Position numbers and translations under genes: made by a program. Of a stretch of DNA of 36,922 nucleotides, positions 2,095 through 26,688 are shown piece by piece. Below the pieces are notes generated by a model. It was not told the origin of the DNA. It saw only the letters and a program-made list of their open reading frames with translations, and ran no database searches. Position 1 is the first letter of the stretch. Each line of letters starts with the position of its first letter. The stretch is from Chloroflexota bacterium (GTDB taxonomy: Bacteria > Chloroflexota > Anaerolineae > Anaerolineales > Anaerolineaceae), in assembly GCA_012522475.1 (NCBI GenBank), contig JAAYKH010000003.1:1-36922 (forward strand), given 5' to 3'.

Positions 2095-3375
2095 GTGAAT
2101 TTTGTTGAGATTTTAGGCAGCATTTCTGACTTTTTGATGGGTTTAGGTATTCCCGTTCTGCTGCCCCTGATCATTATTGTTTTGGGCTTAATTTTCGGCC
2201 AGAAGTTTGCCACCGCTCTGCGCGCTGGTTTGACCTTTGGTGCTGGTTTTATTGCCCTGAACCTGGTTATCGCCCTGTTGATTGATAACATGGTGCCCGT
2301 CGTTAATAACCTGGTTGCTGATACTGGCACAAAACTGACCATCCTCGATGTGGGTTGGGGTGTTGCTGGTGCTATTTCCTGGGCAACCAAAGCAAGCGCC
2401 GTTGTCCTTCCCGTTGGTCTGCTGGTTAACTTCATTATGTTGGCATTCAAATGGACCAAGACTCTGGACGTGGATATCTGGAATTACTGGAACCAGGCTT
2501 TTACAGCTTCTGTGCTCTATCTCGTGACCGGTAGCTTTTTATGGGCCATCATCGGTGTTGTCGTCCACACTGTTTACGCTTTGAAAGTTGCGGATCACAC
2601 TGCTGAGCGAGTGCAGGAATTCTACGAACTGCCCGGTATCAGCATTCCCCATGGTTGGGCTGTTACCAGCTATCCCATTATCTTTGTGGTCAACTGGGTC
2701 CTTGATCGGATCCCCGGCATCAAAGATATTAAATGGGATCAAGGCGCCATTCAGGAGAAATTGGGCGTCTTCGGTGAACCGCTGATCCTGGGTACCATTC
2801 TTGGTATCGTTGTCGGCGCAGTTGGTGGTCTCTGGCGCGATCCTGTTGCTCTGATCACCCTGGGTGTCACCATTGGTACCGCAATGATCCTCATCCCGAA
2901 GATCATTGGCTTCTTCATGGAAGCTCTGACACCACTTTCACAGTCAGCTCGCGAATTCATGAGCAAGCGCTTCGCAGACCGAGAAATCTACATCGGTTTG
3001 GACTCCGCTGTTCTGGTCGGCCATCCCGTCACCGTTTCAGCCGCGATCATCTTGATCCCGCTTGTCCTTGGCCTGGCTTTCATCCTGCCTGGCAACAAGG
3101 TGCTGCCTTTCGGTGACCTGGCTTCCCTGTTCTATTTCGTAGCCTTTGTTCCTTTCATGACCAAAGGAAACCTGTTCCGCTCGATCATCTCCGGTCTGTT
3201 CATCATGAGCGTTGTGATGTACGTGCTGACCTCCTTCGGCCCTGCATTGACACAAATGGCTGTCGAAGTTGGTTACGAAATCCCGGCTGGTGCAGTTGAT
3301 ATCACCGGGTTATCTGCTGGTAACTGGGTTGCCTGGGTCGTTTACCAGGTCGCCCGCTTGTTCACCGGTGGCTAA
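2095..3375 (+). CDS. PTS galactitol-family permease, EIIC component
   Basis: This 426-residue integral membrane protein has about ten hydrophobic segments and is the transport channel of a phosphotransferase system. The IPHGWAVTSYPI segment (about residues 183-194), a 'DVGWG' region near residue 82 and the overall length match the GAT family EIIC (GatC/SgcC), which imports and phosphorylates galactitol, pentitols or related compounds. The start is GTG 2095, fixed by AGGAGG at 2084-2089 with a 5-base spacer; the overlapping ATG is out of frame and closed at once. It is the first structural gene after deoR. It is followed by a strong terminator, so it may be expressed more highly than the genes after it. 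The substrate cannot be read from sequence. Confidence 0.93.
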   Translation: MNFVEILGSISDFLMGLGIPVLLPLIIIVLGLIFGQKFATALRAGLTFGAGFIALNLVIALLIDNMVPVVNNLVADTGTKLTILDVGWGVAGAISWATKASAVVLPVGLLVNFIMLAFKWTKTLDVDIWNYWNQAFTASVLYLVTGSFLWAIIGVVVHTVYALKVADHTAERVQEFYELPGISIPHGWAVTSYPIIFVVNWVLDRIPGIKDIKWDQGAIQEKLGVFGEPLILGTILGIVVGAVGGLWRDPVALITLGVTIGTAMILIPKIIGFFMEALTPLSQSAREFMSKRFADREIYIGLDSAVLVGHPVTVSAAIILIPLVLGLAFILPGNKVLPFGDLASLFYFVAFVPFMTKGNLFRSIISGLFIMSVVMYVLTSFGPALTQMAVEVGYEIPAGAVDITGLSAGNWVAWVVYQVARLFTGG

Positions 3376-6804: not shown

Positions 6805-7452
6805 ATGATAAAAATTGCCCCATCGATCGTTTCTGCACCTCTGTTAACCATTGGGTCGGTAATTAAAGAGCTTGAAATTGCCGGCGCAGATTTTATTCAT
6901 TTCGATATTGAAGATGGTTACTTTGTACCGGTCATGAATTTAGGTGCCAAAATGATCAAAGACTTGCGCCACCTCACCAATTTACCCTTTGATGTGCACC
7001 TGATGATGGCTCAACCGGAATGGATTATCCCAGTTATGGCTGACTACGGCGTGGATCGCTTGTCAGTCCATTACGAAGCCTGTCCCTACCCCCGGCGTAC
7101 GCTTAAGAAAATATGCGATCATGGTATGCAAGCGGGCTTGGCATTCAACCCGGCAACCCCTATCCCAGATTTGCATTTTTGTTTGCCCTACCTCTCGTTT
7201 GTTGTCTTGCTAACCACAGAACCTGAAGATTGGTCTGGTGATTATTTGCCGTCGGTATTGGAAAAAATGCGGGAAAACAAAAGTAAATACAAACATTTAG
7301 AATGGGTTGTTGATGGTGGTGTGAGCAGTGAAAACATTCATCAAGTGTGGTCAGCAGGTGCAAACACTGTTGTCTCGGGTCGAGCGGTGTTTGAAAACAA
7401 CGCCATCAAAGAAAATATCATCGCGATGAAGGAAAAATGTCACAACAATTAA
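6805..7452 (+). CDS. Ribulose-phosphate 3-epimerase-like protein (SgcE/Rpe family)
   Basis: The 215-residue TIM-barrel protein belongs to the Rpe family, which interconverts ribulose 5-phosphate and xylulose 5-phosphate. It has APSIVSA at the N-terminus, HFDIEDGYFVP with metal ligands H32 and D34, H65 in FDVHLMM, and D170 in VVDGGVSSEN. The usual NPGFGGQ loop of true Rpe is replaced by EPEDWSGDYLP around residues 139-149, so the substrate may differ, as in the Rpe-like enzymes AlsE and SgcE. No Shine-Dalgarno is obvious before ATG 6805. The next gene (EIIA) starts eight bases after the stop, showing cotranscription. The context implies a step in using the PTS product. Confidence 0.85.
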   Translation: MIKIAPSIVSAPLLTIGSVIKELEIAGADFIHFDIEDGYFVPVMNLGAKMIKDLRHLTNLPFDVHLMMAQPEWIIPVMADYGVDRLSVHYEACPYPRRTLKKICDHGMQAGLAFNPATPIPDLHFCLPYLSFVVLLTTEPEDWSGDYLPSVLEKMRENKSKYKHLEWVVDGGVSSENIHQVWSAGANTVVSGRAVFENNAIKENIIAMKEKCHNN

Positions 7453-7460
7453 GGAAAAAC

Positions 7461-7952
7461 ATGAGCACAAACACAGAAGATAATTTTTTAGATATCATGC
7501 TGATTGAAGAAGAAAATTTCTTCATCAAAAGCGAGGCGAAAACTTATCAGGAAATCATCAAGGAATTAGGAGAGCATTTATTTTCAAAAGGTTATGTGAA
7601 AGATACATTCACACAGGCCGTATTAGACCGGGAAGAAGCTTACCCGACCGGGCTGCAAGCACCTGGCGGTGGGGTTGCTATCCCACATACGGATTCTGAA
7701 CATGTGATCACCTCGGCGTTGAGCATTGCCACGCTTGACGAGCCGGTTGATTTTCATGTGATGGCGGAACCGGACAAAATTGTCCCGGTCTCGGCCGTTA
7801 TGATGCTTGCCGTTGCTGACCCCGAAAAAGTGATCCCGGTTCTCCGCAAGGTGATTTCCATCGTTCAGGACGCTGAGGCGATTAAAAATTTAATTAATTC
7901 GGTAAGCAAGGAAGAAGCCAAACAAATTGTAATCGACCATATCACAGCATAA
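7461..7952 (+). CDS. PTS EIIA component (fructose/mannitol EIIA fold, used in GAT systems)
   Basis: The 163-residue cytosolic phosphocarrier takes phosphate from HPr and hands it to EIIB. The phosphorylated histidine is H76, in the hallmark GGGVAIPHTDSEH. The upstream motif LDREEAYPTGLQ is typical of PTS EIIA type-2 domains. ATG 7461 was chosen because AAGGA precedes it by seven bases; an earlier in-frame ATG at 7437 lies inside the epimerase gene. Galactitol-family systems use this EIIA type together with EIIB and EIIC subunits like those in this locus. Confidence 0.92.
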   Translation: MSTNTEDNFLDIMLIEEENFFIKSEAKTYQEIIKELGEHLFSKGYVKDTFTQAVLDREEAYPTGLQAPGGGVAIPHTDSEHVITSALSIATLDEPVDFHVMAEPDKIVPVSAVMMLAVADPEKVIPVLRKVISIVQDAEAIKNLINSVSKEEAKQIVIDHITA

Positions 7953-7990: not shown

Positions 7991-8019
7991 TTGAATGACA
8001 GGCAAAAATACATTATAAT
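7991..8019 (+). promoter_or_regulatory. Promoter ahead of the EIIB gene
   Basis: TTGAAT at 7991-7996, a 17-bp spacer and a perfect TATAAT at 8014-8019 lie in the 131-base gap between EIIA and EIIB. EIIB could therefore be transcribed on its own, ending at the terminator at 8437. Confidence 0.6.
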
Positions 8020-8083
8020 TAACAGACTATACCAACAGCACAATTCTTAAACAAAAATCTTAATAAACCAAAGAGAGGAAAAT

Positions 8084-8398
8084 ATGGCAAGAAGTGTAAG
8101 GATTTGAGTTATTTGCGGTTCAGGTGTTGCTATGGCAATGCACGCTGCATACAAACTCCGTGAATATTTCGCAAAAGAAAAAGTGCCGGTCATCATTGAT
8201 GGCGGAGGCAATAATGAACTGGCCGGACGGATTGGTGGTTACGACATGGTTGTGAGTAACGCCCAGGTGACCGTTAAGACTGATAAGCCTGTTTTCACCG
8301 CTGTCCCCCTTATCACCGGTATTGGAGAAGAAGAGCTGGTTGAAAAAATTATTGCTAAAGCAAAAGAGATTCAAAAAGAATTAGAAGATGCCAGCTAA
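8084..8398 (+). CDS. PTS galactitol-type EIIB component with an in-frame TGA at codon 8
   Basis: From ATG 8084, with AGAGAGG just upstream, the frame reads MARSVRI, then TGA (8105-8107), then VICGSGVAMAMHAAYKL and on to a normal stop at 8398, for 104 codons. The length and the CGSG phosphocysteine loop (C11) match GAT-family EIIB proteins (GatB/SgcB), which pass phosphate to the substrate on EIIC. The TGA takes the place of a hydrophobic strand-1 residue three codons before the cysteine. Everything after it is intact. The reading frame that opens at ATG 8132 would lack the active cysteine. Possibilities are a recent nonsense mutation, readthrough, selenocysteine (giving UxxC), or a sequence error. 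I see no convincing bacterial SECIS hairpin just after the TGA. Confidence 0.8.
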
Positions 8399-8436: not shown

Positions 8437-8478
8437 ATTTTCAAGTTATTAAATTAAGTAACTTGAAAATTTTTTTTC
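8437..8478 (+). terminator. Strong intrinsic terminator after EIIB
   Basis: A perfect 12-bp stem (ATTTTCAAGTTA with TAACTTGAAAAT), a 10-base loop and a run of eight T follow the EIIB stop by about 40 bases. It separates the transport genes from the small-protein, HPr and enzyme I genes. Confidence 0.88.
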
Positions 8479-8618
8479 ACAAGGTGGCGTTCAACCATCC
8501 TCAAATTGACAAGTATTTATCGCTATCGCGATTGAGTTCACAAATTTTTAATAGAAATTACACTTTGAGATGAATACAAATTTAATATCACTCAAAAAGA
8601 ATGAGGAAGCAGACAGTC

Positions 8619-8918
8619 ATGGAAAATATGACAAAAATTACAATTGAAGAGAAAATTCCTGGAAAGTCAGCCGATGACGTTTATGAGACTTTCAACAGCG
8701 TCTTTGAAGAAGTTGGTTTTGAGATCTGGAAGAAACGCCCAATTGCCTGGCTGTGTATGGCGAAAACAAGCATCGATAGTAAACCCGTTGATGCCAATTT
8801 GGTCGTTCGCCCAACCTCGCCGGTGAGTCTTACGTTGATTATGTCCTCACCAACAGCTACCGAAGAGGAAATGTCGGCACTGGCTGAGAAACTGTTCGAG
8901 CGTTTTAATGCGAAGTAG
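8619..8918 (+). CDS. Small protein of unknown function in the PTS locus
   Basis: This encodes 99 residues of a mixed acidic and basic soluble protein with no signal peptide or membrane segment. ATG 8619 is chosen because GAGGAAG ends nine bases before it; an ATG at 8601 overlaps that site. The sequence (ITIEEKIPGKSADDVYETFN near the N-terminus, and a C-terminal helix EEMSALAEKLFERF) suggests a small alpha/beta domain. I do not recognise the family. It stands between the EIIB terminator and HPr, so it might modulate the phosphorelay or act on the substrate, but that is only guilt by association. Codon use and the good ribosome site support a real gene. Confidence 0.65.
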   Translation: MENMTKITIEEKIPGKSADDVYETFNSVFEEVGFEIWKKRPIAWLCMAKTSIDSKPVDANLVVRPTSPVSLTLIMSSPTATEEEMSALAEKLFERFNAK

Positions 8919-9098: not shown

Positions 9099-9362
9099 AT
9101 GAAGAATATCGATATTGAAATTGCAAACGAAGTAGGCCTGCACGCCAGGCCAGCAGCCCTTTTTGTTCAAACTGCATCAAAATACGAGGCGGATATAACA
9201 GTTTCGTATGATGGGAAAACAATCAACGCAAAAAGTATCCTGGGTATTTTAAGCCTGGGTGTCGGGAAAGATTCATTAATTACAATTAGCGCAGACGGTG
9301 CGGATGAAGAAGCGGCAGTTGAAGCTCTGGTAGATCTTATAGATACGAATTTCGGGGAATAA
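9099..9362 (+). CDS. ptsH: Phosphocarrier protein HPr
   Basis: The 87-residue protein has the family's normal length. The phosphorylated histidine is H15 in GLHARPAA. Serine 46 (AKSILGILSLG) is the regulatory site phosphorylated by HPr kinase in Firmicutes, so this HPr has the Gram-positive style motif; no HPr kinase gene is present in the window. HPr takes phosphate from enzyme I and passes it to EIIA. A strong GAGGAGG precedes ATG 9099. The gene lies 68 bases upstream of ptsI, the usual ptsHI order, and both are probably cotranscribed. Confidence 0.96.
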   Translation: MKNIDIEIANEVGLHARPAALFVQTASKYEADITVSYDGKTINAKSILGILSLGVGKDSLITISADGADEEAAVEALVDLIDTNFGE

Positions 9363-9430
9363 GTAATTTTTTCGGACGGATTATTTTGTGAACGATCAAA
9401 TCACATGGTTACTCTTGGGAGGGAATAAGC

Positions 9431-11137
9431 ATGGAAATTATTGACGGTATCCCTGCTTCGAAAGGTTTGGCAATTGGGCCAGGTTTTATCTATTCAGTTG
9501 ACGATTCTAGACCTGAAAGAAAAATGATTGCGGATTCGCAAAAAGAGGTCGAACGCTACCACGCTGCTATGGAAAAAGCCGATGACGCTTTAAAAGCCCT
9601 GTATGACAAAGCCATTGAAAGCATGGGAGAGGAGACCGCAGAGATATTCAATGCACATCGATTGATTCTAAAAGACCCCGAACTCATTAAAGATGTTGAA
9701 AGAACCATCGTAAGTGATCATATTTGTGCCGAGTTTTCAGTGTTTCGAGCGTCCGAAGCGGCAGCCAAAATGATGGAGAGTCTTGACGATGAGTATTTCC
9801 GTGCCCGGGCAGCCGATATCAGGGATGTCGCCAATCGGGTTATCCAAACATTAAAGGGTAATATCATTGACGTCGTCAACCTTAAGGAGCCCGTCATCAT
9901 CCTGGCACAAGATTTAGCACCCTCCGATACAGTCAAATTTGATCGCTCTCTAATTCTTGGGTTTTGTACGGCGATGGGTGGCTCTACCTCACACACTGCT
10001 ATCATTTCCAAAGCCCTGGGGATTCCAGCCCTCGTTGGCACAAAAATACTTCCGAAAGACCTTGATCGCCAGACAATGCTGATCCTCGATGGGAACGAGG
10101 GTCAATTAATTATCGACCCGGATGAAGATACGCTCGCGTCTTATTATCGCAAACAGGAACAATTCAACCAACAAAGCCAGTTGGAATTATCGCTCGCCCA
10201 TCAGCCGGCGACAACTAAAGATGGCGTCAATGTCGAAGTTGTAGCCAATATTGGGAACCTGGCGGATGCAAAAGACGCCTTGGCGAAAGGTGCGGAAGGC
10301 GTTGGCCTTTTGAGAACTGAGTTTTCTTTCATGGAACACATGGTCATTCCCGATGAGGAAACTCTTGTAAAAACCTACCATGAGATCTTTGACATCTTTG
10401 ACGATGAGCCGATTATCGTCCGAACCCTCGACATCGGTGGTGACAAAGACGTGCCGCACCTGTCTCTAACTGTAGAAAGCAACCCGTTTTTAGGCAACAG
10501 GGGTATCCGCCTGTGCTTTGAACGCCCCGACCTCTTCAGGCCGCAATTGCGAGCCATCCTGCGTGCCAGCCTCAATACCAATTTGCATATTATGTTCCCA
10601 ATGATCTCTTCCCTTGGTGAGGTCAGACAGGCTAAGATTCAACTCCAGGAATGTATGGATTCACTGGAAGTAGATCAACTGGAATTCAATCGGAATCCAA
10701 AAATTGGAATTATGGTCGAAGTCCCCTCAGCAGCTATATGCGCCGATCAGCTCGCCAAAGAGGTCGACTTCTTCTCAATTGGCACCAACGACCTGACTCA
10801 ATACAGTTTGGCTGTCGACCGCACCAATGCTGCTGTAGCCCATCTTGGCTCGGAGCTCCATCCAGCCGTGCTGCGATTAATTCACCGGGTGATTGAAGAA
10901 GGGCATGAAGCGGGTATCTGGATTGGTATGTGCGGGGAAATGGCTGGAAATGAAACTGCGATCCCAATCTTACTGGGTTTCGGCCTTGATGAATTCAGCG
11001 TTACGCCCAGCCTGCTCCCTTCTACCAAAGCAACCATCAGAAAGTGGGACAGGCAAACCGCGAAGAAACTTGCGGAGCAAGCGTTAAATTGCCAGTCGCC
11101 CGAAGACGTAAAACGCCTTGTTGAAAAATATCAATAG
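9431..11137 (+). CDS. ptsI: PTS enzyme I (phosphoenolpyruvate-protein phosphotransferase)
   Basis: The 568-residue protein is a complete enzyme I. It autophosphorylates from PEP and donates phosphate to HPr. The phosphorylated histidine is H188 in GGSTSHTAI. The PEP-binding barrel carries LLRTEF, the segment around GNRGIRLC, and C501 in GMCGEMAG. The N-terminal helical HPr-binding domain surrounds the phosphohistidine domain. GGGAGGG sits seven bases before ATG 9431. The gene completes the phosphorelay and is followed by a bidirectional terminator at 11262. Confidence 0.96.
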   Translation: MEIIDGIPASKGLAIGPGFIYSVDDSRPERKMIADSQKEVERYHAAMEKADDALKALYDKAIESMGEETAEIFNAHRLILKDPELIKDVERTIVSDHICAEFSVFRASEAAAKMMESLDDEYFRARAADIRDVANRVIQTLKGNIIDVVNLKEPVIILAQDLAPSDTVKFDRSLILGFCTAMGGSTSHTAIISKALGIPALVGTKILPKDLDRQTMLILDGNEGQLIIDPDEDTLASYYRKQEQFNQQSQLELSLAHQPATTKDGVNVEVVANIGNLADAKDALAKGAEGVGLLRTEFSFMEHMVIPDEETLVKTYHEIFDIFDDEPIIVRTLDIGGDKDVPHLSLTVESNPFLGNRGIRLCFERPDLFRPQLRAILRASLNTNLHIMFPMISSLGEVRQAKIQLQECMDSLEVDQLEFNRNPKIGIMVEVPSAAICADQLAKEVDFFSIGTNDLTQYSLAVDRTNAAVAHLGSELHPAVLRLIHRVIEEGHEAGIWIGMCGEMAGNETAIPILLGFGLDEFSVTPSLLPSTKATIRKWDRQTAKKLAEQALNCQSPEDVKRLVEKYQ

Positions 11138-20318: not shown

Positions 20319-23300
20319 TTGTCCATTAAATTGATCCTGGCACCTGCCGCAGCCGGCAAAACCCAGGCCTGCCTGCAGCGCATTCAATCTCTCCATGAAA
20401 CCGAACCCCTGGCGCCTGTTTGGGTACTCGTACCGGACGCGCAAAACGCGGCCTATTTTCGTCAGCGTTTAAGCCGCATCGGCGGTGGGGTGAGCGTTAA
20501 CGTGGGCACCTTCCGGGCGCTATACGTTGACCTGTTGGAACGGCAGGGCTTGTTCACCCCAGTGATCACTGCCGCCTTGGAGCACCGCCTGGTCAATCAG
20601 ATCGTGGAGGGCGCCTACGCCGCTGATGAATTAGATCATTACACTGCCATCAGAAATAAGCCAGGTTTCATTGGTGCCTTGCAAGATGTTTTCTCCGAGT
20701 TGCGCAGCGCTTACATCTCCCCGGAGCGATTCCTTGCTTACACCCATATTTCACCGCCTGCCAAGCAGGAACTCGCCCGCTTGTATGCGCGTTTCATTGC
20801 CCAGCTGGAGGCCATCGGCTGGATCGATCGTGACGGGCAAATTTGGGAAACCATCGCTGCCCTGGAAGGCGATCCACAAGGAGCAAGCCATATCCGTTTG
20901 CTGATCGTGGATGGGTTCACCGCCTTTGCTGGCGCTCGGCTGGCGTTTCTCAAACAGCTCGCATCCCAGGTGGGCGAGGTGCTGATCACACTACCTGGCG
21001 TGCAGGGCTCATCTCGCGCAGTCGACCGCCGAACCCGGGCGGTAATCCAAACCCTGCTCAACGAACTCTCACCCATGGTGAGTGAGCTGTCCGCCACACC
21101 CCACCTTCCGCCTGAAAGCAAACATCTTGAACAGCACATCTTGGAACCCGGTGAATACCCCAAAATACAGGCCTCCAGCCCATTCTTTCTGGAAACTCAA
21201 AACCAGGGCGAGGAAGCTCGTGAAGCGCTGCGCTGGGTCAAGCGCCTGCACAAGCGCCATGGGGTTCCGCTCTCAGACTGTGCCCTGTTCGTCAGCCACC
21301 TGGAAACCTACCGACCCCACCTGCGAGCCGCCGCTGATGAGTTCGGGGTCAAAATATACTTCTCTCACCCGGACAGCCTTATGAAATCACCAGCGGTGCA
21401 ATCGTTGCTTAATTTGCTGGAAATGCCCCCTGAGGACTTCACGACCCGGGCTGTGATCAACACCCTGCGCTCGCCCTATTTTGATTTTGGACTGGACGAG
21501 AAGGATATTGACCATTTGGAATTAGTCAGCCAGATGGCGCGCATCGTTGCCGGGCAGGGGCAATGGACGGAGGCCTGGGAGATGCTTTCAGCAACTCGCC
21601 GTGATGCCGGGGAACCCCTGGATGATGAACGCCAGGTAAGCAACCCGCTGCGCGACGTCGATCTTACGGCTTTGCGCCAGCAGTTTGTTCGCTTTTGGCA
21701 GGTTTTTGATGAAATCGAAACGCCCCGCACCCAAACTGAATGGGTCGCCTGGCTGGAATCCACCCTGGCGCACCTACAATTTTACAATCTACTCTCTGGT
21801 GAGCGTGACCTGGAAGCCTGGCAAACCCTGGGCGAAACCATGAGATCCCTCATCCTGAGTGAACAGGTGCTCGGTGGGTACCCGGTTAATTACGAATACT
21901 TTTTATCCGTCCTGGTGGGCGCAGTTCAGGGAGCACGCCTGGATGAACCCCGCGAAGCGCGTCGAAATGCCGTATTTATCAGCGGAATCCAACATGCCGC
22001 AGCCTCTCGCTTTAAGGCGGTAGCGCTGCTGGGCTTCTCCGAAGGGTTGTTCCCAGTCGTAGAGCACCCCGATCCCTTCCTGGATGAGCACACCCGGGTT
22101 GATCTGGGTTTGGACCCGCAGTTGGGGCGCGAGCAGGTCAATATTTTCTACCAGGCTTTTGCCCGCGCCGACCGTTACTTATTGTTCACCCGTCCGTACC
22201 TAACTGAACATGGTGAGCGTTGGGAAGCCTCTCCTTACTGGCTCTCTGCAGTCAGTTTATTCGAAAAAGAGGCCGTGCAGAAGATCAGTCCGAACAGGGT
22301 CCGCCCTCAAGCAGAAGCTGCCTCGCCCCAGGAGCTGCTGTTTTGGGCGGTACAGCAACAGAACCTGCATTACAAGGACGATGACGAGCTGGTTTCCAGT
22401 TGGAAGGAACTCGCCCTTGCCAGAACAATCCTCAATGCCCGACGGATGAAAGTACCACAAAGTCAATACGAAGGTGATCTCAGCGCTCTGGCAACAACCT
22501 TTAAAGCAACCTATTCACCTGATCACACCTGGAGCGCCTCGCGTTTTGAGACCTACGCCACCTGTCCGCATCAATTTTTTATTCAAAATCTGCTGAAGCT
22601 TGAACCGAAAGAACCGCCCGAGTTGGGTTTGGACGCGGCCCAGGTCGGCAGTATCCTGCACGAGGTTTTAGAAAAGGTGTATCGGGCAGCAGAAGACATC
22701 ACCGACCTTGACGCCCTGTTGGCCATCCTGGAGGACCATGCCGCCAGCGTCTTTGCACAAGCCCCGCATAAAGAAGGCTTTCGCCCGTCGCCGCTGTGGG
22801 AGGTTGAAAAAGACCAGTTTATCGGCATGCTGCGCAAGACAATTGAAGCTCTCTATACAGAAAGCCTGGGCTGGACACCGATCCGCTTTGAAGAGAAGTT
22901 TGGTATCAGCAATACTCCCGACCTGGTCCTCGACCTTGAAACCGAAGAAGTTCGTCTGCGCGGGTTGATCGACCGGGTGGACAGGAATGAGCTTGGGGGT
23001 CTCCGGATCATTGATTACAAAACAGGCGGATCAAACCTGTCCAACAAAGACCTGATCAGCGGGCAACGCCTGCAAATGCCGATCTATGCCCTGGCAGCCC
23101 AGCAAGCCCTGCGTTTGGGCACGGTTGAAGAAGGTTTTTACTGGCAAATCCGCGCTGCAAAGCCAAGTTACTTTAAGTTATCGAAATTTAAAAACGATGA
23201 GCTAAAAGGGCCACAAGGTGCCTACATGACCACCCTCAACCATATCAGGCGCATCCTGGAGGGTGTTCGTTCAGGACAATTCCCTCCCATCGCACCCAGG

Positions 23301-23363
23301 GATGGCTGCCCAAGCTATTGCCCGGCTGTCCAATGGTGCTGGCGTTACCAGCCTCGCTTTTAG
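20319..23363 (+). CDS. addB: AddB subunit of the AddAB helicase-nuclease
   Basis: The 1014-residue protein processes double-strand DNA ends for recombination together with AddA. The N-terminus has a P-loop, APAAAGKT (8-15). The C-terminus has a PD-(D/E)XK nuclease (GLIDRVDRNE then RIIDYKTG). An iron-sulfur cluster typical of AddB is indicated by a cysteine in YATCPHQFF before the nuclease and the C-x3-C-x5-C group at the very end (CPSYCPAVQWC). The start is TTG 20319 with AAGGAG seven bases upstream. It lies 13 bases before addA, the usual addBA order. Confidence 0.93.
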   Translation: MSIKLILAPAAAGKTQACLQRIQSLHETEPLAPVWVLVPDAQNAAYFRQRLSRIGGGVSVNVGTFRALYVDLLERQGLFTPVITAALEHRLVNQIVEGAYAADELDHYTAIRNKPGFIGALQDVFSELRSAYISPERFLAYTHISPPAKQELARLYARFIAQLEAIGWIDRDGQIWETIAALEGDPQGASHIRLLIVDGFTAFAGARLAFLKQLASQVGEVLITLPGVQGSSRAVDRRTRAVIQTLLNELSPMVSELSATPHLPPESKHLEQHILEPGEYPKIQASSPFFLETQNQGEEAREALRWVKRLHKRHGVPLSDCALFVSHLETYRPHLRAAADEFGVKIYFSHPDSLMKSPAVQSLLNLLEMPPEDFTTRAVINTLRSPYFDFGLDEKDIDHLELVSQMARIVAGQGQWTEAWEMLSATRRDAGEPLDDERQVSNPLRDVDLTALRQQFVRFWQVFDEIETPRTQTEWVAWLESTLAHLQFYNLLSGERDLEAWQTLGETMRSLILSEQVLGGYPVNYEYFLSVLVGAVQGARLDEPREARRNAVFISGIQHAAASRFKAVALLGFSEGLFPVVEHPDPFLDEHTRVDLGLDPQLGREQVNIFYQAFARADRYLLFTRPYLTEHGERWEASPYWLSAVSLFEKEAVQKISPNRVRPQAEAASPQELLFWAVQQQNLHYKDDDELVSSWKELALARTILNARRMKVPQSQYEGDLSALATTFKATYSPDHTWSASRFETYATCPHQFFIQNLLKLEPKEPPELGLDAAQVGSILHEVLEKVYRAAEDITDLDALLAILEDHAASVFAQAPHKEGFRPSPLWEVEKDQFIGMLRKTIEALYTESLGWTPIRFEEKFGISNTPDLVLDLETEEVRLRGLIDRVDRNELGGLRIIDYKTGGSNLSNKDLISGQRLQMPIYALAAQQALRLGTVEEGFYWQIRAAKPSYFKLSKFKNDELKGPQGAYMTTLNHIRRILEGVRSGQFPPIAPRDGCPSYCPAVQWCWRYQPRF

Positions 23364-23376
23364 AGAAAGAGGTATG

Positions 23377-26300
23377 ATGACCGATCCTCACATTAAAAAA
23401 ATACTGGATACCCTCAACCCACAGCAATACCTGGCTGCTACCGATCGTGGGCGGGATGTGGTCGTTACAGCCGGCGCGGGCAGCGGTAAAACAAAGACTC
23501 TGGTCGCGCGTTATACCTCGCTTTTAGCTGAAGGAATTCCGCCTCGTCGGATTGCAGCGATTACCTTCAGCATCAAAGCGGCACGCGAGATGCGTTCCCG
23601 GGTGCGTGAGACTCTGTACGAGCTGCAGCAAGATGCTACGACTGAAGAAGAACGCCAGAAATGGCTGGCGCTCTCTGCACAAATGGACGCTGCACGCATC
23701 AGCACCATCCACAGCCTGTGCACCGAGATCCTGCGCGCCCATCCCGCCGAAGCAGGCATTGATCCCCGCTTTGAGACCGTCGATGAAAGCCTGGCAGCCG
23801 CCTTACGCCTTCAAGCGGTAGAGGATACTCTCAAAGCACTGGTGGATGAAAAATCCTATGCACCCTTATTAAATAATATTTTCCTGTTTGATTTACGGGC
23901 AATGCTGAAAGACCTCCTTAACCGCCGTTTGGAAGCCAATGAAGCCTTTAATCAGCAGGTGGATCACCTTGCACTGATCACCGAAATGCTGCATGGAGGC
24001 ATGCACAATCCGATCATCAAAGATGCTATTTCCGCCCTGCGGGGGATGTCTCTGGATGAGTTAATCAGCGACGCAAATGAAAAATTGGCGGGTATGGTTC
24101 AGAATCTGCTGAACTTGTGGGGTGAAGCAGAACGCGCCATGGACCGCAGCGACCTGTTTGGCTGTGCGGCAGCACTTTACCAGGCCCGGCGTTCATACAT
24201 GAAATTGAACATTGGAAAAAACGGTTATACGAAGGAGATAATCCGGAATTTACAGACCAACTTCGACCTGCTAATAAACCCAATCACAGGTGGAAAAGAG
24301 GCTGGCGATCAGGTTCCAGACCCAGAAATAGAAACCTTATTTAGCGAATTACGGCTGCTGCTGCGGGACGCCTATGTAACTTTGTGTCAGAACTACCAAA
24401 ACCTGTTGCAAGTCCGCCAGGCTCTCGATTTCGACGACCTGGAGCAGGGCGCACTACAGCTTTTACACAATCATGCTGCTATCCGTCAACACTGGCAGGA
24501 CGAACTGGACGCCATCCTGGTGGATGAATTCCAGGATACCAACCGCCGCCAGCAAGGTATCATCGAAGCCCTGGCTGGCCCCCTGGGGCGCTTGTTCATC
24601 GTCGGCGATATGCGCCAGTCGATTTACCGCTTCCGCCAGGCAGATGTGACCGTTTTTAAACACGTGCAGGATCGCATCAGAGCAGAGAACGGTCAGGTCA
24701 TCGATCTGCCGCTGACTTACCGGACACATCAACCGCTGCTGCAGGCCATCGACGACCTGCTCTCCCCGGTGATCGGTACCCAGCCCGACCCGGCGCGGGA
24801 TTATTTCGTCCCCTATTCAAAAATGGAAGCCTTCCGCAAGGAACCACCCGGGCACACTCAGCCGCCCCACATCGAGCTGGTAATCGGCACAGCAGAAAAC
24901 GCTGAAACCGCCCGACCAAAGGCCGCCCAGGCGCTGGCGTTACGGTTGCTGCAGCTTAAAGAAGAAGGACAGGTTCAAACCTGGGATGAGGTCGCACTGC
25001 TATTTCGCGCCTCAACGGGTTACGCAGATTATGAAACGGCACTGGAAGAGGCGGGTATCCCCTTCGTGACGGTAGCAGGTCGGGGGTTTTATGATCGCCC
25101 GGAAATTCGCGACCTGATCAACATCCTGAGGGCGCTGGCAGACCCGCTGGACGATCTTGCTTTTGCCGGTTTGCTGCGTTCTCCGGCCTTCGGATTGAGC
25201 GACAGCGCGTTGTTCCTGCTGCGTCAATCCGGACTGCCCTACTGGGAAGCTTTGCAGGCGGATCTCTCTGTTTTGAATACCCAGGATTGTAAACGAGCCC
25301 ACAGGGCCTATGAAATTGTTTCTCAGCTCCTGCCCCTGGTCGCCCGCATCCCCGTGGCAGAACTGCTTCCCAAAATCGTCAACGCAACCCAATACCGCGC
25401 CATCCTGGCTGCAACGGATGTGAAGGACAATCAACATGGCGCCAGTACAACCGGGGGTCGCCTGTGGCGCAACCTGGATAAACTTCTAGCCGACGCTCTG
25501 GCCAGCGAAGAACTGCGTGTGCGCAATTACCTGGACATGATCGAAACTCTCAATGACGCGGGTGCCCGCGAAGGTGAGGCCTCTGCTGAAGCCCAGGGGG
25601 CTGTACAATTGATGACCATCCACAAAGCCAAAGGCCTGGAGTTCAAAGTGGTCATACTGGCAGCCGCCAGCCGGGAGACCAGATCGCCCGGCGAACTAGC
25701 GTACCTGTTCAAGGAACTGGGCGTGGCGTTCAAACTTGATCCTCCGCCCATGCTTTACAACCTGTCTAAGCATATTGATAAAGACCAGAATGCAATGGAG
25801 CAGTTGCGGTTATTGTACGTTGCCCTGACACGCGCTGAGGACAAATTGATCATCAGCGCTCATGCCACCCAAAACGAGGAAGGAAAGCTAAGCTTTCGCG
25901 CGTGGGGAAATATGCTTGTCGAGGGTCTCGAGTTGATGAGCGAGGACTTGCATCTTGCCGATGTTGAGCCCTCTGAATTCCGCACATCATCCAACCAACC
26001 CCTGCGAGTGTGGTGCTTGAGTGATGCCCACCCGACGCCTGAAATCTTTCTCCCCGTTGAGGTCGGTGAAAAGTTGGAGGTCAGCAAACTCTGGCCGTTG
26101 TATCATCCCATCCAGGTTAGTGATCTGGAATCAGCAAGCGATGAAGGTGAGGAGCAGATCGATCCATCAAGTTGGTGGAGTATCAACCAAGATAGCGCAC
26201 ATATCGGGAAAATCCTGGGGATAATGGTACATAAAGCGCTTGAACGCTGGCGCTTTCCGGGGGAAACAGGTTTCGAGCAGATGTTGGACACAGCAGCGTT

Positions 26301-26688
26301 GCGTGCCGGGCTCGTTCAGGAAGATCAACGATCCGAACTCATCCAACAGGCGATCGTTCTGCTTGAACGCCTGCAGACACATCCTATCTGGGGTCAAATC
26401 AACGCCAGCACTGAGCGCCTGCACGAGGTTCCTTACACCTTGCAGGTGGGCAGGAAAGCTGAGAATGGAATAATTGACCTGGTTTACCAGGATGATGAGG
26501 GCTGGAAAATCGTCGAGTTTAAGACCGATACCATCCTGAAACCGGGTGACAAAGCAGAATTACTGTCCAGGTACGCGCCCCAGGTGCAGCGCTATCGGCA
26601 TGCCGTCAAACAACTGTTGGGCATAGACGCCCAGGCAAGCCTGTGCTTTTTAGATGATCATGGCAGGGTGGTTCTGGAAAGCATGTAG
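23377..26688 (+). CDS. addA: AddA subunit of the AddAB helicase-nuclease (UvrD-like)
   Basis: The 1103-residue SF1 helicase carries a C-terminal nuclease. Helicase motifs run in order: the Q motif LNPQQYLAA, Walker A AGAGSGKT (32-39), the DEFQDTN motif II, GDMRQSIYRFRQAD (motif III), TIHKAKGLEF (motif V) and YVALTRAEDKL (motif VI). The C-terminal nuclease shows GIIDLVYQD and IVEFKTD. With AddB it unwinds and degrades DNA ends until a Chi-like site. ATG 23377 is preferred for spacing from GAGG; ATG 23374 is adjacent. The frame opens further upstream inside addB, but those starts lack ribosome sites. Confidence 0.95.
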   Translation: MTDPHIKKILDTLNPQQYLAATDRGRDVVVTAGAGSGKTKTLVARYTSLLAEGIPPRRIAAITFSIKAAREMRSRVRETLYELQQDATTEEERQKWLALSAQMDAARISTIHSLCTEILRAHPAEAGIDPRFETVDESLAAALRLQAVEDTLKALVDEKSYAPLLNNIFLFDLRAMLKDLLNRRLEANEAFNQQVDHLALITEMLHGGMHNPIIKDAISALRGMSLDELISDANEKLAGMVQNLLNLWGEAERAMDRSDLFGCAAALYQARRSYMKLNIGKNGYTKEIIRNLQTNFDLLINPITGGKEAGDQVPDPEIETLFSELRLLLRDAYVTLCQNYQNLLQVRQALDFDDLEQGALQLLHNHAAIRQHWQDELDAILVDEFQDTNRRQQGIIEALAGPLGRLFIVGDMRQSIYRFRQADVTVFKHVQDRIRAENGQVIDLPLTYRTHQPLLQAIDDLLSPVIGTQPDPARDYFVPYSKMEAFRKEPPGHTQPPHIELVIGTAENAETARPKAAQALALRLLQLKEEGQVQTWDEVALLFRASTGYADYETALEEAGIPFVTVAGRGFYDRPEIRDLINILRALADPLDDLAFAGLLRSPAFGLSDSALFLLRQSGLPYWEALQADLSVLNTQDCKRAHRAYEIVSQLLPLVARIPVAELLPKIVNATQYRAILAATDVKDNQHGASTTGGRLWRNLDKLLADALASEELRVRNYLDMIETLNDAGAREGEASAEAQGAVQLMTIHKAKGLEFKVVILAAASRETRSPGELAYLFKELGVAFKLDPPPMLYNLSKHIDKDQNAMEQLRLLYVALTRAEDKLIISAHATQNEEGKLSFRAWGNMLVEGLELMSEDLHLADVEPSEFRTSSNQPLRVWCLSDAHPTPEIFLPVEVGEKLEVSKLWPLYHPIQVSDLESASDEGEEQIDPSSWWSINQDSAHIGKILGIMVHKALERWRFPGETGFEQMLDTAALRAGLVQEDQRSELIQQAIVLLERLQTHPIWGQINASTERLHEVPYTLQVGRKAENGIIDLVYQDDEGWKIVEFKTDTILKPGDKAELLSRYAPQVQRYRHAVKQLLGIDAQASLCFLDDHGRVVLESM

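Follow-up and report, generated by a model that had tools for sequence, protein, structure and literature searches.

An in-frame TGA three codons before the predicted phosphocysteine of a GatB-like EIIB is probably a single-base change in an aliphatic codon

A GatB-like phosphotransferase system (PTS) EIIB frame in the window, by which we mean the whole 36,922-nucleotide stretch of DNA analyzed, is interrupted by a TGA at codon 8 (8105-8107, in the sequence as given), and we consider it very probable that this TGA represents a single-base change in an aliphatic codon of an ordinary EIIB, either as a recent mutation or as an error of assembly. The initial annotation had correctly placed the stop three codons ahead of the active-site cysteine codon, and had raised the possibility that the resulting order forms a redox-style UxxC motif read with selenocysteine (Sec). 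The order TGA-x-x-Cys is indeed there, but its redox meaning found no support. By contrast, the mutation or sequence error that the annotation had also put forward is supported by the residues of homologues at this position and by a failed SECIS test.

The EIIB frame (8084-8398, forward strand) reads in translation MARSVRI, a stop, then VICGSGVAMAMHAAYKLREYF and onward to EDAS and its terminal stop, so that coding sequence lies on either side of the TGA, with an upstream part of 7 codons only. With X placed at the stop, EIIB residues 6-76 matched Pfam PTS_IIB at 32.2 bits against a cut-off of 23.6, while residues 6-91 scored 34.3 with the NCBIfam PTS galactitol IIB profile, below its cut-off of 95. 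Judged by these profiles, EIIB is a relative of GatB that falls below the NCBIfam GatB equivalog cut-off. The predicted phosphocysteine, Cys 11, is encoded by TGC at 8114-8116 and is conserved in orthologues. The structure was modelled with the TGA taken as a residue, from aligned sequences of the window and five related loci, at a mean pLDDT of 89.4. Strand beta-1 of this model spans residues 5-10 and contains codon 8, with Cys 11 coming directly after it. Taken with the profile matches, the model thus has a GatB-type fold with a phosphocysteine loop when the TGA is read as a residue. In redox UxxC motifs, the cysteine pair is placed where a helix begins.

Expression signals claimed around EIIB fared unevenly. 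The ribosome site, GAGAGGA at 8073-8079 upstream of EIIB, is in place. A sigma-70-like promoter match upstream of EIIB (7991-8019, TTGAAT-17-TATAAT) agrees with the consensus in 10 of 12 positions, but is weak, as 3 such matches occurred in the scanned stretch versus 1.9 expected. For the terminator, an A+T-rich 11-base inverted repeat, TTTTCAAGTTA/TAACTTGAAAA at 8438-8448 and 8459-8469, is followed by eight T (8438-8477) and was recognized by eye as a possible terminator, but a scanner requiring at least 3 G-C pairs returned none.

The claim that the rest of the phosphorelay is intact holds, with galactitol-type EIIC (2095-3375), EIIA (7437-7952), HPr (9099-9362) and Enzyme I (EI, 9431-11137) all being open forward-strand frames with family matches, among which EIIC and EIIA score below their NCBIfam cut-offs as EIIB does. 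EIIC-GAT and EIIA are thus associated with EIIB in one cluster, and the other genes of the window, a DeoR-type regulator, two dehydrogenases, an M42 peptidase and a ribulose-phosphate-type epimerase, are open as well. Gene content was compared with five related loci, taking in at most 10 kb to either side: all five matched EIIC, the two dehydrogenases, the peptidase and the epimerase, and also EIIA (more weakly in L059 and L061), four matched the DeoR-type regulator, and one (L061) matched HPr and EI within the compared DNA. This single sugar operon is adjoined by HPr and EI (9099-11137), and the genome has no other full-length Enzyme I match. A second EIIB match of the genome, on contig C35, is adjoined by a mannitol-type EIIC and an EIIA, as judged from frames read by eye.

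Several other features of the window were seen in passing. As listed, EIIA begins with an ATG and shares its first 16 bases with the end of the epimerase frame (7437-7461); its true start may instead be the in-frame ATG at 7461, which follows TAAGGAAAAAC. Between EIIB and HPr lies an open frame of 105 codons (8601-8918), for which no Pfam or NCBIfam match was found at E 0.001; because a relative of it (30% identical over 91 residues) comes after EIIB in L059 (10303-10575), its sequence may represent a PTS-linked family. Further downstream, an AddB-like frame (20319-23363) and a UvrD-helicase/nuclease frame (23263-26688) overlap by 101 bases and, judged by domain content, form an AddAB-type repair pair.

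The TGA was next set against the residues that homologues carry at its position. A scan of genome contigs and whole-genome searches over overlapping sets of 41, 396, 147 and 400 genomes, with the window's own loci and other loci of the same genome excluded, gave 80 homologue loci and 83 matching rows that reduce to 67 distinct sequences, representing part of the matches listed rather than every homologue. In these 67 the position is occupied by Leu in 54, Val in 5, Ile in 4, Tyr in 3 and Trp in 1, and Cys was found in none; the Cys or Sec homologue by which a bacterial selenoprotein is recognized was thus absent among them. That the position is normally hydrophobic, as claimed from the window alone, is borne out, and the expectation of Leu, Ile and Val only, offered as part of the grounds for dismissing Sec, holds in 63 of 67, the other four having Tyr or Trp. 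These four (L013, L057, L058 and L059) belong to a paralogous EIIB group. The scan of genome contigs gave five loci 58-76% identical to EIIB, and the six distinct orthologues obtained together with the whole-genome searches (59-76% identical) carry Ile, Val, Val, Leu, Leu and Leu, encoded by ATA, GTT, GTA, CTC, CTC and TTG. Search rows flagged with stops proved to have a sense codon at position 8 in the loci checked. ATA, GTT and CTC are two or more base steps from TGA; TTA is absent from the six orthologues at codon 8 and present in more distant homologues.

Sec decoding as such is possible in this organism (genome of 2,255,161 bases in 89 contigs, completeness 98.58), because selA (535.9 bits), selB (356.6 bits) and selD (334.1 bits; C33:14900-15832, with one in-frame TGA taken as a residue) all score above their cut-offs and a tRNA-Sec (selC) with a TCA anticodon was found. 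A lack of sel genes, which the initial annotation had named as evidence against Sec, is thus not what the genome presents. Genome-wide reassignment of TGA was ruled out: among 301 sampled ORFs of at least 150 codons, 103 end in TGA, which is therefore a normal stop in this genome. The one formate dehydrogenase found in the genome has no in-frame TGA.

SECIS rules published in PMC13188914 demand an apical loop of 3-9 nt, a stem of 4-16 bp, a distance of 16-37 nt from the UGA, an energy of at most -7.5 and a G in the first two loop positions. The best fold is an imperfect hairpin over and 3' of the TGA (8106-8158) with a 7-bp upper stem and an apical loop UAUG (8131-8134) beginning 23 nt on. It lies within the limits for loop size, stem, spacing and energy but fails the G rule. 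At 40, 46 and 56 nt this holds for the best fold and for suboptimal ones up to 2 kcal/mol away, whereas selD of the same genome passes the SECIS rules at all three lengths. The absence of an obvious bacterial SECIS noted from the sequence is thus confirmed by a published rule. This failure is not absolute against a SECIS, because some accepted elements fall outside the model, as PMC13188914 itself states. On the other hand, the rules are loose: of 600 coding positions, 74 have a best fold that passes at 40 nt and 130 at 56 nt, as do 6 (40 nt) and 10 (56 nt) of 102 terminal TGAs. Passing would therefore prove little, and the window hairpin fails anyway. An Rfam search gave no SECIS family at the window, and likewise none at the selD region serving as positive control, so that this negative carries no weight.

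Nor does the stability of the hairpin stand out. Its z values were -1.10, -2.38 (56 nt), +0.59, -0.63 and -1.09 by stretch and -1.53 at 60 nt, and the value of -2.38 was rejected as a signal, being one of six lengths and within the range of synonymous recodings, of which 236 to 483 of 1000 folded at least as well across four lengths. Coding positions folded at least as well in 195 of 600 cases at 40 nt and 140 of 600 at 56 nt, and the whole fold was shared by none of five orthologous stretches.

We then considered how the gene has fared beyond its stop. The six orthologues share 44 invariant columns, and the window departs from one of these, with V changed to I next to the Cys; the orthologues, each treated likewise, depart from 0 to 4. 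The two computable window pairs gave dN/dS of 0.14 and 0.16 versus 0.08 to 0.26 for seven intact pairs, with synonymous sites near saturation and the ratios hence poorly defined. No further sign of decay was seen in the EIIB gene. This pattern indicates that selection acted on the EIIB gene until very recently, or still does, and conservation past the stop therefore means that the stop is too recent for decay, or is an error, or is read through. The two alternatives of the initial annotation, recent inactivation or error on one side and readthrough on the other, accordingly both stand, and ongoing selection on the frame would speak for readthrough.

Other stop-interrupted genes were sought in 419,893 bases, or 18.6% of the genome, made up of the window and 20 further stretches. 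A first pass over 1711 segment pairs left 30 candidates; 27 of them (one in L102) were rejected for having a start codon at most 9 codons past the stop, as in adjacent genes, and the other three for lying antisense to long frames. A second pass gave 87 sites, six of which matched a ribosome site and overlapped little: the window's one, two in L090, two in L096 and one in L102. The window's site and the two L090 sites were examined, the latter reading as adjacent ordinary genes. No other convincing stop-interrupted gene thus emerged from this partial scan, which performs poorly for stops very close to gene starts, and such defects are therefore uncommon in the assembly. A second copy of the window DNA was sought in viral contigs, and none was found there.

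These data bear differently on three ways in which the interrupted frame could still yield a working product. If SelB and tRNA-Sec decoded the TGA, EIIB would carry a U-V-I-C motif, and a Sec-phosphocysteine selenenylsulfide might switch the transporter by redox state. In favor of such decoding are the complete Sec machinery, purifying selection on the frame and a stable downstream hairpin (z of -2.38 at 56 nt) whose loop size, stem and 23-nt spacing fall inside the published limits. However, selenoproteins nearly always have Cys homologues (PMC9312934; PMC1794560 names GrdA as an exception) and EIIB has none among 67, the UAUG loop breaks the published G rule, the z value depends on length and carries no signal against synonymous recodings, codon 8 is predicted to lie inside a strand, and the sole formate dehydrogenase found does without an in-frame TGA. 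Homologue, SECIS, synonymous-recoding and model tests together ruled out Sec as the leading reading, leaving the UxxC selenoprotein unsupported and Sec insertion at this codon highly improbable. We give an equally slim chance to a Sec-containing EIIB with redox-switchable sugar uptake whose SECIS lies outside the canonical loop rule; if true, a phosphotransfer protein would form a selenoprotein family, and selenium would be tied directly to sugar uptake. A literature search combining selenoprotein, phosphotransferase system and EIIB returned nothing on the subject as judged by title, and the word phosphotransferase is absent from the main text of PMC13188914, PMC1794560, PMC2398784 and PMC9312934.

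A true but leaky TGA, at which a near-cognate tRNA such as tRNA-Trp inserts a residue and yields enough EIIB for residual transport, would fit the conservation that continues downstream, and Trp (TGG) in the homologue L013 suggests that this residue may be tolerated. But that Trp is the only one in 67 and comes from another EIIB group, and no tested feature indicates programmed readthrough, so that we regard leakiness as improbable. Translation restart is the least credible of the three: an 88-codon frame begins with the ATG at 8132, but its product, as the annotation had recognized, would lose the phosphocysteine, whose codon lies upstream, together with strand beta-1. By itself that frame matched no Pfam family at E 0.001, and there is no in-frame ATG, GTG or TTG between the TGA and the Cys codon. 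A functional short product is accordingly extremely unlikely.

No special mechanism has to be invoked for a single-base change, whether it is real or an artefact. Leu TTA to TGA would be the simplest such change, TTA being the only aliphatic codon one step away, and would have arisen either as an inactivating mutation of very recent date in the strain or as an assembly error. PMC2398784 likewise cautions that an in-frame TGA seen in a single sequence may stem from faulty sequencing. If the stop is real, ribosomes would halt after seven residues, little or no phosphorylatable EIIB would be made, and the galactitol-type PTS would then be off. Standing against a single-base change are the full Sec machinery, the lack of other decay (which readthrough would also give), the finding of the partial scan that such defects are not common in the assembly, and the absence of TTA from the six orthologues. 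Taken together, these results caution that an in-frame TGA near a Cys codon in a Sec-decoding genome is insufficient for calling a selenoprotein; homologue residues and SECIS tests decide.

Comparison with known systems places EIIB accordingly. Like SelD of the same genome, it has an in-frame TGA near the start of a conserved gene, but SelD belongs to a known selenoprotein family and has a downstream hairpin that passes the SECIS rules. With the UxxC thiol-redox selenoproteins (Trx-like, Prx-like and PrdB, as tabulated in PMC2398784) it shares the codon order and a Sec-decoding genome, yet it differs from them in having no Cys homologues found, a failed SECIS rule, a strand position and membership of a phosphotransfer family. 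A further known system close to it is GatB. EIIB is 25% and 27% identical to GatB structures 5gqs and 1tvm, lies below the NCBIfam GatB cut-off and has a TGA at codon 8 rather than an aliphatic residue; however, these structures are its best Foldseek matches (probability 1.00, TM on query 0.72 and 0.68), and it further resembles GatB in its profile match, its active-site Cys-Gly loop and the EIIC-GAT and EIIA genes of the same cluster. Apart from its stray stop, this EIIB looks ordinary.
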